Positions 45,407-63,944 of a DNA stretch of 64,000 bases are shown here, piece after piece; within the stretch, counting starts at the first letter, position 1, and each line of letters opens with the position of its first letter. The notes below the pieces were generated by a model that was not told the origin of the DNA, did no database searches, and was given only the letters and a program-made list of their open reading frames with translations. Where the stretch lies: NCBI GenBank assembly GCA_014773175.1, contig VXCM01001318.1, positions 124,001 to 188,000 on the forward strand, in the 5' to 3' direction. Position numbers and translations under genes: made by a program. This stretch comes from Lucifuga dentata. Its lineage: Eukaryota; Chordata; Actinopteri; Ophidiiformes; Bythitidae.

Positions 45407-46542
45407 CCTGTTGTGAAAAATACAAAATGAATAACTTATGAATGAAAATGTAAGTGCCCTAACTAGAAACAGCCGCAAAGGAAGAGAATTTCCCTAGTGT
45501 CTGTTCAAGCTCTCCTGTCTATGTGGTATAAAGTGACACCTGTGTGCAACAAATTATTCATACAATTGGAGTAACCTAAAGCAGGAAACACTCCAGATAA
45601 TACACTCCTCATTCTGTTGATTTACACTAAGTGACCAGTTCAATAGGTGTGCAGGTGTATAATATACTACACTCTGAAACAATAGCCCTGTAATTAATCA
45701 TATGGATTATATTATGTTAAGAGGTTTTTTTTTGTTTGGTTTTTTTTAGTTAAAATTATAAACTTTGCAGAGGCAGGATTTGTTGCAGAGCTAATTGGAC
45801 TGCATTGGATTGTTTAGGAGCACCTAAAATGAAATGGGGAAATCAGTGTATTTTCATATTTTATTCAATATAAATTGGATATATTGGATATATAAATTGG
45901 ATATATTTATCCAATTTTTTCATTATCTTTATGTATTGAACTGAAAACTCACTAATAAGTTTGTAGGAATGGAAGAGTAAAAGAGATAGAAATTTAAAAG
46001 ATAATATAGGAAAAAAAAATATCACAAGTTTAAAAATTTCATGATTAACAACAAGAATCGAAAATACTATGGCAGGTAGGCTGTACTCCCTAACGACAGG
46101 GGGCGATAAAACAAACTGCTCCCCAGTATACAAAAGAAGACACTTTCTAAACCGGAAACTAAAGTGTCTCCAACCTTTACTCACATATGTACATATATTA
46201 ATTGCTTCCGATCCTGCAGTAACACGGATCAGATTGTTCCCCAACTCTTTTCCGTCGCTTTTAAAAACGCAACATCACTTCTGCCCCATTTTTTTTTTTT
46301 TTTTTTTTTAGCTGCCGTCAGCAGAGAGCTGTACAACTTCAGAAAGTCATTTAACCACAAACATAAATTCCCGGAATAAACTTTTACATAGACGCTGGTG
46401 TGTATATGAGGTAATGTTACCATTCAACAGCACCTTCTCGAATTCAAACGAAATGATACGTATTAGGAAAAATACCTATTTGTGATTTTATTGAGTTTTA
46501 TAATGAATGTAACTGTATTCACGCATGCAGGTGTACATAACG
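45407..46542. other. Divergent intergenic region, ch25h-like / CCCH-CHY gene
   Basis: Probably holds both promoters. At about 45628-45665 it contains aagtgaccagttcaatagg, resembling a repeat very common in fish genomes (…gtggccactttattaggtacacctg). A poly-T run lies at about 46290-46309. Confidence 0.4.
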
Positions 46543-49500
46543 ATGGAGAACAGCGAGGAGGAGAAGCCAGCTGAGACAGAGTCAGTCCCTCACACACAGC
46601 AGCAGCTGTGTCGATATTTCGCTCAAGGAAGACACTGTAATTTTGGGAAAAAGTGCAAATTTCTACATGTAAGAGATGATGCCTTCAAAGCAAACAGGAG
46701 ACCACAGGAGATTACACCAGCCCACTCAGAGGGCTCTGGAGGTCATGTGGACCACAGATCTCTAAACACCGACTCCAGGTCTGCTCCAGTGACCAGCCGT
46801 CGCCCCTGTCGCTACTTTATCTCTGGCTTCTGCTCCATGGAGGACAGATGTCGTTTCTGGCATCCACCACAGCTCCCCCTGCTAGATGAGAAGCCTATGC
46901 CTGAGACTTACACACGACCCACACCGAGGATGCCTCCAGCCCCTGGTCCCTGCATCCTTCAGGAGGTCAAGCTGTGTGACCTAACAGAGGATATTGCTAA
47001 GCAGCTTCGAGAGACAGAGATCAGGCAGATGAAAAAGCGTTTTCCCAAAGACCGGCTGATTATTCAGGAACGAAGTGATGGCCAAGTGACTTATTACCGA
47101 GCCACTGTAGAGTCCACTGATCCAGACTGGGTAAACACTTCACTCTAAAAGTTCCCTGAGAGGAAAATTCACAGTCGATGCAATTCATGTAATTTCTTTT
47201 TACATTGCTCAGCTCTGTTTGAATCTGTGAACTTATATCTTTGTGAACTGACATGCTAAGTTGTATCTGGATCCATGCTGACTCATGTTTATAACTCACA
47301 GCCTTTTGATCTGAAAGAAATTGATATCATGGTGAGCTTCCCAGACAAATACCCTCAGGAGGTAAAGATTACTACTTCCATTTACACTCTTAAAACCAGC
47401 CAGTTGGTGTGAACTTAACCACTTTTCATCAGCTTTTTAACTCTTTTCCTCAGATTTTCACATTGGACATACCACTGGACCAGGATCTGCCACCAGTAAT
47501 GGCAAGGTAACTAAGCATTTGCAATTTTGTTTTAATGTAAGCTATTTAGAAGAATTGACAACTGTTGCAGTCATTTTTTAAAAATAATTTATCTGCACGC
47601 ATAGATATGTACAACAAGCATCATTAAACTGGCTTCAGGCCAAACATGCCACCAATCAACTCTGTGGAAAAGTAGAGCTGCTTTTCCGACCCTTTCTTCG
47701 TTGGCTAGATCGTAGTATGGAGAGACTGTTCACCGAAGGAGCCAGGCAGGTAAGACAGCCTGCTGAAACAATAAATGATTATCATTAATTACACCAAAAT
47801 ATGCAAAATAATCAATGTAACATTATTTTCTGTTTTGAATGCTTCTACAGTTGAAAAAAGAAATAGATGTAGAAAAAGCAGGATTGCAGTTTATACCATA
47901 CCAGAAACTCCAGGAAACTGTGGGTGAAAAAGGTGGGAGCAGTCAGTCATTTGACCCTGCCTCTGATGCTGCCGCTGCAGAGGATGCCAGTGATGAAGGA
48001 AAAGAAGAAAGGGAGGGGACAATGGAGGGAGGGAAACTTCTACAGCAGGATGGTCAAAGTTGTGGTGAAGAGGAGGAGGAGGAGGAGGAGGAGGAGGAGG
48101 TGACAGCCAGTCATCTAGTGGAGAACATTAAGATCAGTGATCCCCGCAGAGGCACAGAGGTGAAGCTGTTGGGACTGACGCTGGGAGAAAACACAGCCAC
48201 TGTAGTGGCCCGACAGATCACAGTTTGTCTTCAGTGTAATAGGTAAAAAATCCTCAAAAAAAAAATCAGTCAAACCACTATTTAGAGGTGTTTTATTGGC
48301 ATGGGATCTGACAGTTGATGCCAAGTTTGAGTGTGTTATGTGCTTTCTGCAGGTGTAAAGTAACAGCAGACCTGATGCTGACTGGTAAGACACCCTGCAC
48401 AGCTCATTGTGAAAAGTGCAGCGCTAGCATCAATGCTGCATTTCGACCCTGCATGCTGCACCATTACAGTGACATCTTGGGATACTTGGACCTCCACAAT
48501 GCCACTCCCGCTGATCTTGTGCTTCAGGACTGTGATTTCACTGTGGGCTGCCTCAGCTGCTCCCAGGAAGGCCCTGTGGAGGTGAAGAAACATGCCACGT
48601 CACTGCACATCTGTTTTGTGAAAAATTAGAGTTACCAGTTTGAAGTGACAGCAGAAGTACCGTAAATGAAATGTTAGCCTTTCTGCTGATAGTCTCTGCT
48701 GAAATTGCATTTTTTTTATTATTACTTTTTTTTCCCTTTAGAATCTTTCCTATGGCCAAACGAAGGAGTTTAACTGTGATCACTGCCACAACAAGCTCAG
48801 TATCCTGGCTGACAGCACAAGATTCCAGTATATTCAGCCACGCACTAATAAAACAGGTGAGACCTTTGCTAACACAGGAATCAGCAAATGTGAACCACTA
48901 TTGACTTTTTCCTCCTATGCCCAGGAAATAAAACAACACCATACAAAAAGAAACTGTCACACAGTGTAATACTGTTGATACAGCTCCCTGGTCAATGCTG
49001 CCTTATATTGTTATTCTCAAAGCAAAAGAGTTCATTAAAGCTTTTAAATATGAACATTCATACACACATAAACCTAAAACTCTGTAACTTACATTTATGC
49101 CTCTGCATGATACATACATTCACAACAAAATGCCCATACAGGTCAATAAAATGCAATAAATCACTGTTTAAAGGTTTGTGTTGTTAGGACAGAAAGGATA
49201 CTGAAAATGTTTTAGTGGATTTTTTTTTTTTTTTTCCATGCAGGTACAAGTGCTTGTGCCCCTAATTCTAAGACTATAAGAGATCCTGCTGTGCAAAAAG
49301 GGAAACCGTTGCCAGAAAAAGGAACATGCAAACATTTCAGGCACAGCCATCGCTGGCTAAGGTAATTCCTTCAGTGAATCCTTAAATAATTTCATATGTA
49401 CATATTTATTACAGTGAGATCTGTGTAATGCCTATTAGAAGTTAGTAAAATGTTTATGACCGCAGGTTTCCCTGCTGTGGCCGGGCTTACCCCTGTGATG

Positions 49501-51328: not shown

Positions 51329-51376
51329 GGCAGAGCTTTGTCTTAATCCTGCAGATTGCAGTGTTACTGCACTGAG

Positions 51377-52198
51377 ATGGTGAACATTAGTGAGCTGCCC
51401 GTGCAGCTTCAGACCTCCGACCGGCTCCTGCAGCCTCTCTGGGACTATTTGCTTTGTCATCATCTGCCTCTCATCTCGTCTCCTTTTTTCCCAGTCCTAC
51501 TTGCTTTTTCCAGTTACTTCTTCTTTAGCGTACCTTTTACTGCACTGGACCTGTTGGGAGAGAGGATGCCTTTATTCCATCAGTACAAGATCCAACCAGA
51601 CAGGCAGCCAACACTGAGAATGATGCTTAAGAGCTTTATGAGAGCTCTGTATAACCATTTATTTTTTGTTCTTCCAGCCATAATGTTTAGCACATTCATA
51701 CTGCCTGCACCAGCACTTCCACAGGACGCACCCACTGTCTATGAGGTATTCATTGATGGACTGGCTGTGCTTCTCCTCTTTGACACCCAGTACTATATTT
51801 GGCATTTCATACACCACAAGCATCCTCAGCTTTATCAGTTGATCCATGCCATCCACCATGAATACATTGCACTCTTCTCTTGGTCTACTGAGCAACTCAG
51901 CATCCCAGAACTGATGACTGTAGGGTTCTGGAGCAACCAGGCCCCATTGCTTTTAAAGTGTCACCCATTGACAATATGGTGTGTGACAGTTTTCAGTATT
52001 TGGATGTCTGTAGAGGATCACATCAGCTATGACCTACCATGGTCCCTCAACCACCTGGTGCCATTTGGTCTGTTGGGGGGTGCACCGGCTCATGACATGC
52101 ACCACCAGAAGCCGAGCAGTAACTATGCTCCTTTCTTTAGCCACTGGGACAGAATCTTTGGCACTGCTGTCCCCCTGAAGAAGACTGTAAAGACGTAA
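51377..52198 (+). CDS. ch25h: Cholesterol 25-hydroxylase-like protein (paralogue 2)
   Basis: Same di-iron sterol hydroxylase family; the product, 25-hydroxycholesterol, restrains SREBP processing and acts in innate immunity in vertebrates. It is a single exon of 273 residues. Hydrophobic segments lie at about 36-60, 88-108 and 125-142. The histidine boxes HFIHH (143-147), HAIHH (157-161) and HDMHH (239-243) are complete, and the C-terminal NYAPFFSHWDRIFGT motif is present. The start ATG (MVNISELP) lies just below a TATA box. It is convincingly homologous to the minus-strand copy 6 kb away but has diverged substantially along its length, so the duplication is not recent. The symbol is a family-level assignment; it could equally be one of the fish ch25hl genes. 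Confidence 0.9.
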   Translation: MVNISELPVQLQTSDRLLQPLWDYLLCHHLPLISSPFFPVLLAFSSYFFFSVPFTALDLLGERMPLFHQYKIQPDRQPTLRMMLKSFMRALYNHLFFVLPAIMFSTFILPAPALPQDAPTVYEVFIDGLAVLLLFDTQYYIWHFIHHKHPQLYQLIHAIHHEYIALFSWSTEQLSIPELMTVGFWSNQAPLLLKCHPLTIWCVTVFSIWMSVEDHISYDLPWSLNHLVPFGLLGGAPAHDMHHQKPSSNYAPFFSHWDRIFGTAVPLKKTVKT

Positions 52199-54930: not shown

Positions 54931-57900
54931 TCAGCGAAGACTCTTATTTAAATATTGCACAAACATGTTGGAAATTTGTCCCGTGTTCTCTGTTGGGTGC
55001 ATCTTGGTGTAGCTGATGAACTGGCGCCGTAATTTCCGTAGCTCTGCCATGTTAATGCTCCTGGTCAGCTCGATGTTTAATATCAGGTTAAGGATGTCAG
55101 AGCACAAATCTTTAACTCCTTTCTCACACAGGAACCGGTAATTTGCCTAAAGTAGATGTACAGCCCTTTCAAACACAGGAGTAACTGATAACATTAATAT
55201 CAGCTGCTTTCCATGGGCCCTGGTGCTATTCAAATGCTGACTCATTCGCTGACACACCTTTACGGAAAATAGCAAACCTTATTACTTCCACCTGTGCTGC
55301 TCCCACTATGATAAGTCAAAAGTCCACAATGAGAAATGTCTGTCAGGTCCATGACAAAGAGAACATTATGATGAAACAACACAAGTACTGAACTTTACTG
55401 AGTAACTGAGTAATCTAAATGATGCGCCTGGCTCTGAAAGTTTACCTGTCAATAATGGACTAACTTTTAATTTCGTTTTGCCTGGGCCAACATGTTCAAA
55501 GGAGGAAAATCTAAGTGTTTGCTTCTGAGAATGTCTGACAAAGTGTTTCCTCCAGTAAAGTTCACTAACAAATCACAAGCCACAGTGTGTTATTACAGGT
55601 AAGACCTTTGAGGTTCATCGGTTGCTGTGCCTGCAATTTATATCCTTTGAAGTTCAACCACTTTCCACCTTTTAACAAGTCTCGTCATTTGATATGGGAA
55701 TACCCTGCCTCCCTGTGGTCTGGGATTATCACTTTCTTTAAGAAGGGACAGTTTAAAAAAAAAAAAAAAAAAAAAAAAAGGGAAACAGCATAAATAAACA
55801 CAGGACCGGGAACATAATAGAAAAACCTATTAAATCTGTTTCACATGAATGTGTTGAAGTAACATTTTAAATAATGATTTGTACATTTTCATTATGTAAA
55901 AAGGATATCTTTTCTGTAGTTCCTGGTACTGAAATGAGATCCCCAGGGACACTTGTCTTCTGCGCATTAAAAATTGCCTGAAAAACACGTGAGATTCCTA
56001 CTTTTGACACAGCGTACTATAAATCTAAGCAGACGGGTATGAACAAAGTGATACGCTAGAAGCAAAGTATGCAAAAGCAAAATTTAGAATTCAAGAGAAT
56101 AAATGTCTCAGACAAACCATTAACACATCTTGTGTGATCTTGTCCAGCTCGTACAGGAAGTTTGCAGATGACAACGGTTGCTGCAAAGGTAAATAAGAAC
56201 GCCACTATTACCACCAACGACTCCAAAAAAGACACCGTGACAATTAAAGCATAAATTCAGACATAATAAACAGTACCTAAACTCTATGCATGCAAAACAG
56301 CACGTCACTTACACTCTGTGTAGACTGGTTAGGTGGTGGTGCTTTTCGTTTGAATATTGCATCAGAGATTGCTTCAAACGGCAAAGTGTCGTCTTTCAGG
56401 ATGGTGAACAGAGGACTGTCCCATCGGTTTCTGGAGTCTGGTGCTTCAAACCTCAACACTAAAGCATCAAAGCTACAAAAGCATATTACATGCTGTATGG
56501 TTTTAATGCTGACAGGCATAAAGCATTTTCAATCCCATCCAAAGATGAAAGGTAGAGACTAACAAACATCTCTACAAGTTTCACACTTACATGTCCTGGG
56601 TGTACTGCTCTGTGGGATCTCTACTACTGTTCCATGCTGAGCTCACTGCATCTGAAGTCAGACAGTACACCTTCAGAAAAAGATAGCAGATTTAAGATTA
56701 CTAGTGACTGTTTGGGGAAATTTTCTGGCTTTTATTTTTTTTCAGATACTAAAAGTCCAGTAGTTGCAGCTCTAGTATACTTACCAGGCAGTGTGGTGTC
56801 TGTGCATGTTTGATGAGACAGTACAGTTCATACCGGTAGCCTGTAAGGTATTTAAACTTCAAATGTAAGAGCATAATCATAATGTCTCAAAAGAGAAACT
56901 TCATGCTACCGTTAGGAAGATTTACCTTTTATGTAATTTAAAGAATCCACAATTACAATATCATCCTTGCTGACTTTTCTGAATGACAAAGAAACAAGCA
57001 TTAAAAAGGATTGTGAGAATATCAATACATGATCAAATTCTGGGATTATTCTGAACAACCTACCTCTCAACTTCAGCTTTCAGAGAAGCTCTTACATTTT
57101 TTTCCTTTTGGGAATCTGCAATATAACCAACAATCATAAAACAGAATAAAACAGTCTTCTTTATGAACATGATGAATCAAACAACAAAATCTGTGCAGCT
57201 AATCCACAAAACTAGTTTAATTCAGCCTGTTACTTCATCTAGGGATTGTGGGTTATTTACATGTGTTCATCATGTGGCAATTTAAAGATTAAATCATTAT
57301 TATTTCGCACAAAAATAAACAGTCAGAAAAAAATTTTGTTGCAAGTGTTTCTCAAAAAAAAAAAAAAAAANAAAAAAAAAAAAAAAAAAAGAGTGGAAAT
57401 CACCTGTTATTGCTGGTTCTGTCTTCTCACAAGTGAGAATTTGCTGCTTTTCTCAGTTTCGTATAATTGTAAATTTAATTTTCTTGTGCTTTTTTTAAAA
57501 ACTGTTCTAAGACAAAATAAGAAATCTAAAAACATCACTGTGGCTCTGGGAACGTGTGATAGAAATTTTTACAATTTTTAGCATAATAATCGAAAAAAAC
57601 GTGAGGGGGCGACACGCACCAAACTCCATTCAAAACTCTGCTCATTTAACAAGCAAGCGCACATTCCATCAGGACTGACAAAACCTTTTCAGGCTTTTCA
57701 GTTAAACTAGAACTTACTTACTAGAACTTAATTTACAGCTGTTTGTGAATAAATAGCATGCATAGGGATTTCCGGCATAACTCTGCCTCTTCTAAAGGCC
57801 ATAAGACATATAAAACACATCATAGCCGAATGAAGTTAGGCATGGCGAGCTCAACTTGCCTGCGTAAACAGAGTTCTTCTCAACACCCATGGCTTCATCT

Positions 57901-58010
57901 CCCACAACGTGAACCTTTCGCTCTGTATTCTTTTCGAAATACACCTTCAGTTGCTCCGTCCTCCGTGTTTTACCACTACAAGGGTAACCACACATCACTA
58001 TAAGAGGCAT
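54931..58010 (-). CDS. kti12: KTI12 homologue, Elongator-associated P-loop protein
   Basis: Kti12 is a P-loop protein that works with Elongator in wobble-uridine modification of tRNA. Exons in coding order: 58010-57860, 57115-57064, 56978-56926, 56840-56785, 56670-56591, 56472-56313, 56180-56118, 55977-55909, 55074-54931; phases agree, 275 residues. The Walker A motif GYPCSGKT is at residues 8-15. Further landmarks: DDIVIVDSLNYIKGYRYELY, LRFEAPDSRNRWDSPLFT, APPPNQSTQSQPLSS, SVPGDLISVPGTTEK and MAELRKLRRQFISYTKMHP. All match human KTI12, which is longer because of an insert this protein lacks. Intron 1 uses a GC donor (GCAG|GCAAGT) and intron 8 uses AT-AC splice sites (see findings). The human gene, to my knowledge, has no introns. 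Confidence 0.95.
55075..55908 (-). other. U12-type AT-AC intron of kti12 (intron 8)
   Basis: The intron begins ATATCCTTTTT, an exact match to the U12 AT-AC 5' splice-site consensus. It carries a branch-point match TCCTTAAC at 55094-55087, and ends TTAAAC with a terminal AC at 55076-55075. Joining GAAAAG to ATCGAG gives TTEK|IELTRSINMAE, equal in length to human TTEHLRFTRPLTMAE. Confidence 0.88.
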
Positions 58011-62446: not shown

Positions 62447-63944
62447 TTAATGGAGAGAGGCTGCTTGTGTCCGGGTGCCGAGATTTACGGTGCAGTCCAA
62501 AGTATGCTCACAGAGCAGACTCGCTGCCTCTTCTGCCTGCGAGAGCTCCGTTTCCTTCAACTCCATTTCCCAGTCATTCACCTCAGTCTTTGTTGATTTA
62601 AGTGACTGATTATCCTGCTCTTTCTCTCTAACCTCTGCTGTCGCCTCTTCCTCATCCTCCGCCTTGTCCTTCTCCTCAGAAGTTTTGACTTTGTGCACGA
62701 TGAAAAGGTGTCTGTTGAGGGACAGCGCAGATGTGAAACACAGCCCACAGTGGAGACACTGAGGAGTGTTTTCATGGGCTTTATGCTGAGGTATATGCTG
62801 CTGGAACTGTGCGCGATCCTCAGTGGTGAAGCCGCACTTTGAGCAACGAAATTGAGATTTCAGACGCTTCGCCGAGGGAGTATCTAGGCTACCGGTGTGA
62901 TCCTGTCCCTCCTCCTGTGTGCCCATAGCAGCTCGTTTTGAAATAAGCCCCTGCAAATCAAGAAAATCACAACTTAGAATAATTAGGAGTAAGATTAAGA
63001 AAATGCGTATGTGTGTCTGCTGTGAATGTTTTGTTTTTGTGTTGAGAGACAATAAAAGACTACCTTTCCCAAAGACTTTTTAGATTCCTGTATGTGTGTT
63101 TTTGGCATCAGGCCTAGATCAGGATTTTTGATTCCATGCATCAGACTGATGTGATTCTTCAGCATCACACTTGTTGCACATGTTGTCCTCATGTCCGTGC
63201 AATACCTGAAGAAGAAAAAATTGCAGATAAAGTGTTAGATTTTGAATGTTTACCAGCTTAATTTGACTAAATGTTCCAACAGTTTTAAAAAAATAATCCT
63301 TACCAACAAGTGTAAGTTTTCTTTTTTCCATCATGGTCAGTGCGGATATGTCTTCTCAAACTGGTAGTAGATTTAAAAGACTGCTCACAATGCTGACATG
63401 GATACCTCTTCACTGACTGCTGAGGGAAAGAGTCACATCAAAAAAAAAAAAGTTGAAAAAGTTCAATAACTTCTCAAATATCCATAAAGAATCACATTTG
63501 TTTTGTCAGGGTTCACATTAATCAACACTTCTGTAAATGTGCCTCAAAGGGCAATTTTAATTTGTATTTCCTGGCCAGATGTTGCTCAAGATGTTAAATC
63601 AGAAAATATACTTTGGATTTGAGCAGCCATTATTGTTTTGGTGTGACATGCACACTGAGGCATACGGAACCGACACTCACTTGTCTGTGGTTGGTCTTCA
63701 TATGAGACACGTAAAATTCTCGTTCAGGGAACCACTGGAGACACTCCCCACACGTCCAGCCGGTGGACTTCACATGAGGCTTGCTGTCCTGTTCAGCCTT
63801 CTTCCTGGGATTATCTGTGTGTTTAACAGGGCTGCAACCCTGCTGCTGCTGTTGGACCGAAGTAGCATCCTGGTAGCAATCAATCTTGTCTATTTGTTTA
63901 CCGATCTTCTCTTTGCTTGCTGCCATGTTTCCTCCATGCAAACT
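62447..63944 (-). CDS. znf592: C-terminal part of a C2H2 zinc-finger protein, probably ZNF592
   Basis: Exons in coding order: 63944-63681, 63419-63304, 63205-63064, 62950-62447; phases agree. The frame is open from an acceptor (GTAG at 63948-63945), so the 5' part of the gene lies outside the window. C2H2 fingers, in order: [20 protein letters not shown]…[21 protein letters not shown]…H, YTCWYCTDM…[21 protein letters not shown]…H and [20 protein letters not shown]…H. The CLQWFP…SHM and CLHCGLCF…HLFIVHKV patterns characterise the end of the ZNF592/ZNF687/ZNF532 family, nuclear proteins of the ZMYND8-associated Z3 complex. An acidic tail follows, ending at residue 168 of the last exon. ZNF592 is preferred over ZNF687 because nmb is adjacent; this is inference. 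Confidence 0.75.

Follow-up and report, generated by a model that had tools for sequence, protein, structure and literature searches.

Evidence for a U12-type AT-AC intron in the kti12 gene of Lucifuga dentata and other fishes

Introduction

KTI12 is a partner of Elongator in the wobble modification of tRNA, and introns excised by the minor spliceosome are a rare kind. The kti12 gene of Lucifuga dentata raises the question of how its last two coding exons are joined and which spliceosome would join them: the public gene model runs on past exon 8 to a stop codon, and an initial annotation of the sequence proposed that a U12-type AT-AC intron, which standard gene finders would miss, lies between exons 8 and 9. 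Here, we examine this junction in the window (the whole 64,000-nucleotide stretch of DNA analysed), in the rest of the genome, and in related proteins.

Results

Structure of the gene. The window contains one complete kti12 gene on the minus strand, whose spliced translation is a single open frame (Table 1). The KTI12 domain of Pfam (PF08433) extends over residues 1 to 271 of the 275, with a score of 343.5 bits (cut-off, 22), and in a search of the L. dentata genome (598 Mb) with the kti12 protein, which scores the best candidates only, all seven matches fell on the same contig. Introns 2 to 7 have GT-AG ends and intron 8 has AT-AC ends. Intron 1 likewise departs from a GT donor, with a GC-AG pair.

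Table 1. Positions in the window of kti12 and of the elements around its eighth intron
Feature	Position	Strand	Description
kti12 coding region	54931..58010	minus	9 exons, ATG at 58010, stop codon ends at 54931, 275 aa
kti12 exon 8, 69 nt	55909..55977	minus	last codon AAG (K228) adjoins the AT-AC donor
kti12 intron 8, U12-type AT-AC (very probable class)	55075..55908	minus	834 nt, phase 0
Intron 8 5' splice site ATATCCTTTTT	55898..55908	minus	
Intron 8 branch site TCCTTAAC	55087..55094	minus	
Intron 8 terminal AC	55075..55076	minus	
kti12 exon 9, 144 nt	54931..55074	minus	47 codons + stop, protein IELTRSINMAELRK...NKSLR
kti12 intron 1, GC-AG	57116..57859	minus	CAG/GCAAGT

Splice signals of intron 8. 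The initial annotation had located the intron exactly to the base. Read on the minus strand, exon 8 ends with ...ACTACAGAAAAG, the intron begins with ATATCCTTTTTACAT and ends with GACATCCTTAACCTGATATTAAAC, and exon 9 starts with ATCGAGCTGACC..., which places the intron between AAG (K228) and ATC (I229). Both sites claimed at the outset are present: the donor directly after exon 8 is ATATCCTTTTT, which contains the extended donor ATATCCTT at positions +1 to +8 of the intron, and the branch motif TCCTTRAC occurs as TCCTTAAC. From the end of this motif to the end of the intron there are 12 nt, in agreement with the 10 to 12 bases given earlier for the terminal AC, with no AG in between, and CTGATATTAAAC, which separates the motif from exon 9, forms no pyrimidine tract. 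In U12-type introns, the distance from branch site to acceptor is usually about 10 to 20 nt, and the lack of a pyrimidine tract before the acceptor serves as a criterion for the class. A ATATCCTT donor, a TCCTTAAC branch site and an AC acceptor make up the classical U12-type AT-AC consensus as given in PMC2831892. No noncoding RNA was found in intron 8, with no Rfam match at gathering score anywhere in the window.

A first-order Markov model of the window gives a chance of 6.6e-6 for ATATCCTTT at one given position and of 2.5e-4 for TCCTTRAC with its A 10 to 16 nt from one given acceptor. The abundance of the motifs was also considered as evidence and was dropped, as the counts in the window and in the genome were not clearly above chance: on both strands of the window, ATATCCTTT occurs twice (0.84 expected), ATATCCTTTTT once (0.09 expected) and TCCTTRAC five times (4.6 expected), and the donor 11-mer has 744 copies genome-wide, compared with 803 for a reversed control. 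Since the motifs are about as common as chance predicts, the weight lies on their position, and the case draws its strength from the presence of both at the single join that recovers the conserved protein, and from the persistence of the donor reading among other fishes (see below).

Minor-spliceosome RNAs and the major-spliceosome alternative. Matches above the cut-off were found in the L. dentata genome for U11 (117.5 bits), U12 (134.8 bits) and U6atac (best of three, 123.3 bits). The U11 match starts with AAAAAGG, which is complementary to donor positions +5 to +11 (CCTTTTT), the U12 match has GTAAGGA, which pairs with TCCTTAAC and leaves one A bulged, and the U6atac match contains AAGGAGAGAA.

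Introns with AT-AC ends can also be removed by the major spliceosome, and the ends of intron 8 could be right while its class is U2-type. Such introns share its terminal dinucleotides; however, they have an ATAAGT-like donor consensus and lack a U12 donor or branch site, whereas the donor of intron 8 is ATATCCTTTTT (ATATCC) and a full TCCTTAAC branch site stands 12 nt before its end with no pyrimidine tract. Table 2 of PMC7367187 lists U2-type AT-AC introns in 11 of 13 vertebrates, where they account for 0.01 to 0.03% of U2-type introns, and we consider it very improbable that intron 8 is one of them.

Joins between exons 8 and 9. All GT-AG, GC-AG and AT-AC joins between base 20 of exon 8 and the stop codon were enumerated for introns of at least 70 nt, with the requirement that VPGDL, MAELRKLRRQF and the C-terminal end be kept. 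This gave 32 frame-keeping joins, 26 of them AT-AC, 6 GT-AG and none GC-AG, and among these 32, of which the 19 nearest in length were inspected, only the 55908/55075 join produced the 275-residue protein. The earlier statement that no GT donor gives a plausible protein was therefore too broad, in that six GT-AG joins do preserve the frame, but each of them alters the protein, and the one nearest in length, which would give 281 amino acids, has weak splice sites on both sides. This last join would run from the donor GAAAAT/GTACAA at 55884 to the acceptor ATCGAG/CTG ending at 55069 and would exchange IE for ISFLHNEN.

Colinearity of related proteins. Searching some 5.8 billion proteins with the spliced kti12 translation returned 1733 matches, the best 120 of which were inspected; the named ones were from fishes. 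In 110 of these best 120 of 1733, the alignment is colinear over the exon 8/9 junction with nothing inserted, so the extra exon between TTEK and IELTR that, by the initial annotation, would have refuted the proposed join is absent from them. Seven proteins in this unbiased list of 120 run on past the lysine with the residues I-S-F, and the remaining differences in it are an insertion of SVLN in P0036 and the skipping of part of exon 8 in P0099 and P0104. Annotation of the colinear proteins may itself have been guided by homology. The 110 also include 12 records with 'lgn' as their only source label, whose longest contigs measure 902 to 1014 nt and which carry the spliced frame colinearly across the junction. 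As contigs of this length are too short for a 3-kb gene, we take these records to be assembled transcripts, and processed retrocopies are possible too.

The donor footprint in other fishes. The run-on end of the protein, with its ISF, was used as a query in deliberately biased searches, from which the best 120 of 213 and the best 120 of 375 matches were taken; the share of run-ons among all 196 proteins fetched is thus enriched by ISF-containing queries. Each of the 196 was aligned to the translation of exons 1 to 8, and the residues that followed were read with no demand for a motif. By this reading, which includes P0172, 142 proteins are colinear, 51 depart directly after the lysine and 3 (P0099, P0104 and P0194) skip part of exon 8. 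Six proteins that are colinear by length but read ISF (P0071, P0072, P0125, P0128, P0160 and P0177) were counted as run-ons, and P0090 (ISL) and P0112 (ISI), which are colinear, were left out of them.

The 51 departing models begin with I-S-F in 47 cases and with I-S-L in 2, the other two being P0036, with SVL(N), and P0139, with TLS. Judging from the listed names, the 49 I-S-F/L models represent 42 fish species, and their residues diverge from position 4 on. ATATCCTTT translates to I-S-F, whereas a GT donor (GTATCC) would give V first, and V directly after the exon 8 lysine was found in none of the 51 departing models among the 196 listed proteins. We read I-S-F/L followed by divergence as the footprint, at the protein level, of a conserved ATATCCTT donor, and by this reading the position and class of the intron are conserved in orthologues. 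The run-on species include Acipenser, Amia, Paramormyrops, Megalops, Albula, salmonids, carps and many percomorphs, and conservation of the donor across ray-finned fishes appears well supported by these predicted proteins. Among the run-ons there is also one shark, Cetorhinus, with a partial model that ends in ...NVKISF. The origin of the donor may go back to early jawed vertebrates, with that one partial model as the evidence from sharks.

A few models differ in other ways. P0036 (Xyrichtys) has SVLN and then exon 9, P0139 (Doryrhamphus) has TLS and then ends; these departures may reflect a further exon or a shift of the acceptor. The KTI12 models P0124 (Nibea) and P0179 (Albula) also list Pfam PF02044, and in these the gene model may be fused with a neighbouring gene.

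The GT-AG alternative. Use of the GT-AG join described above would preserve both the frame and the C terminus, and public fish models with comparable joins exist, such as EKISFSHLTRS in Sparus and EKISFGNLNMAEL in Amia. However, its donor has no G at -1 or +5 and no A at +4, and its acceptor lacks a pyrimidine tract. The residues after ISF vary between species, and the colinear relatives carry no insert at this point, both of which count against the join, and it would additionally make the U12 donor and branch site a coincidence. We regard this join as having very little chance of being the one used, and the AT-AC join at 55908/55075 as very probably the one that connects exons 8 and 9.

The public gene model. 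The deposited L. dentata model, LDENG_00270800 (P0117, hypothetical protein), is identical to the spliced kti12 protein over residues 1 to 228 (228/228). For this member of the Ophidiiformes, PMC7826195 gives genome and transcriptome accessions, including the Transcriptome Shotgun Assembly GIAU01000000. After TTEK it reads ISFLHNENVQIII, which is intron 8 translated in frame to the first stop, and the model ends at 241 amino acids, its last 47 residues (exon 9) being replaced by 13 wrong ones. The prediction that gene finders would miss the AT-AC join has thus come true in this model, which reads through the donor and loses the true C terminus. That intron retention is the normal product and the 241-residue protein is real, as its deposition might suggest, is the least credible reading of the locus, as that form lacks the residues kept in 110 of the best 120 relatives, the run-on residues past ISF are not conserved across species, and the full spliced frame is present on short contigs in other fishes. 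Retention could nevertheless yield a minor product of kti12.

Discussion

On the basis of the donor, the branch site, the distance between branch site and intron end, the terminal AC, the colinearity of the protein, the snRNA genes for U11, U12 and U6atac, and the reading of the donor across species, we conclude that intron 8 of kti12 very probably belongs to the U12-type AT-AC class and is spliced out by the minor spliceosome, as had been proposed. It would be an ordinary, textbook case of a known class: its donor, branch site and AC acceptor are the same as in vertebrate U12-type AT-AC introns. It differs from these in its phase 0 and in that the human copy of the gene is described as a retrogene. 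AT-AC introns make up 22% of the zebrafish U12 introns in Table 2 of PMC7367187. Phase 0 goes against the bias of minor introns, which are biased away from this phase according to PMC10639083.

By the established pathway, U11 and U12 would recognise the donor and the branch site of intron 8 together, U6atac would then replace U11 at the donor, and the branch-site A would attack the donor, after which exons 8 and 9 would be joined. Were the intron kept, the frame would run 13 codons into it and stop, giving 241 amino acids and losing the 47 residues of exon 9. Since retention loses the C terminus, fishes with this intron would need the minor spliceosome to make full-length KTI12. The AT-AC intron corrects a kti12 gene model that is wrong in the public annotation of L. 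dentata and of other fishes. It also points to a connection of KTI12 with minor splicing that would be testable in fish, while the general picture of minor splicing stays the same.

The relatives point to an old intron, shared by ray-finned fishes and perhaps by sharks, which would have been lost where an intronless retrocopy replaced kti12, as in human. Human KTI12 is described in PMC5408686 as a retrogene within an intron of TXNDC12. U12 introns are presented in PMC2831892 as very stable in vertebrates, with three of eight losses attributed to retroposition, and section 14 of that paper reports that the U12 introns of CCDC16 were lost by retrocopy replacement in one event in early mammals and two events in fishes. 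CCDC16 would resemble KTI12 in that an intronless retrocopy took the place of an intron-bearing gene; KTI12 is absent by name from section 14, and the connection between the two is our own. We somewhat favour the view that the AT-AC intron of kti12 was once general to jawed vertebrates and that the human lineage lost it when an intronless retrocopy replaced the gene. On this view, KTI12 would be under minor-spliceosome control in fish but not in human, and the intron would be missed by human-anchored catalogues and by many gene models.

According to PMC7367187, the entries of U12DB are mainly orthologues of reference U12 introns. With a retrogene in human and a database built on reference introns, we infer that human-anchored lists would not include KTI12, and such catalogues may therefore miss intron 8, making kti12 a case of an old minor intron that human-anchored U12 lists would overlook. 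Among the papers searched, none described kti12 as a gene with a minor (U12-type) intron; the intron may well be listed for zebrafish or pufferfish in catalogue tables such as those of U12DB, IAOD and MIDB.

Neighbouring frames. Ten open reading frames of the window were scanned with Pfam and four of them matched, with no bearing on intron 8. Two long, uninterrupted fatty acid hydroxylase frames face apart, at 45493-44582 on the minus strand (85.8 bits) and at 51347-52195 on the plus strand (75 bits), and presumably resemble cholesterol 25-hydroxylase-like genes. A CCCH zinc-finger frame lies at 46513-47145 on the plus strand (40.6 bits); the Glu-rich frame that comes after it, at 47839-48243, has no Pfam match. 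A C2H2 zinc-finger frame (zf-C2H2_11, 62.6 bits) is found at 62450-63079 on the minus strand.
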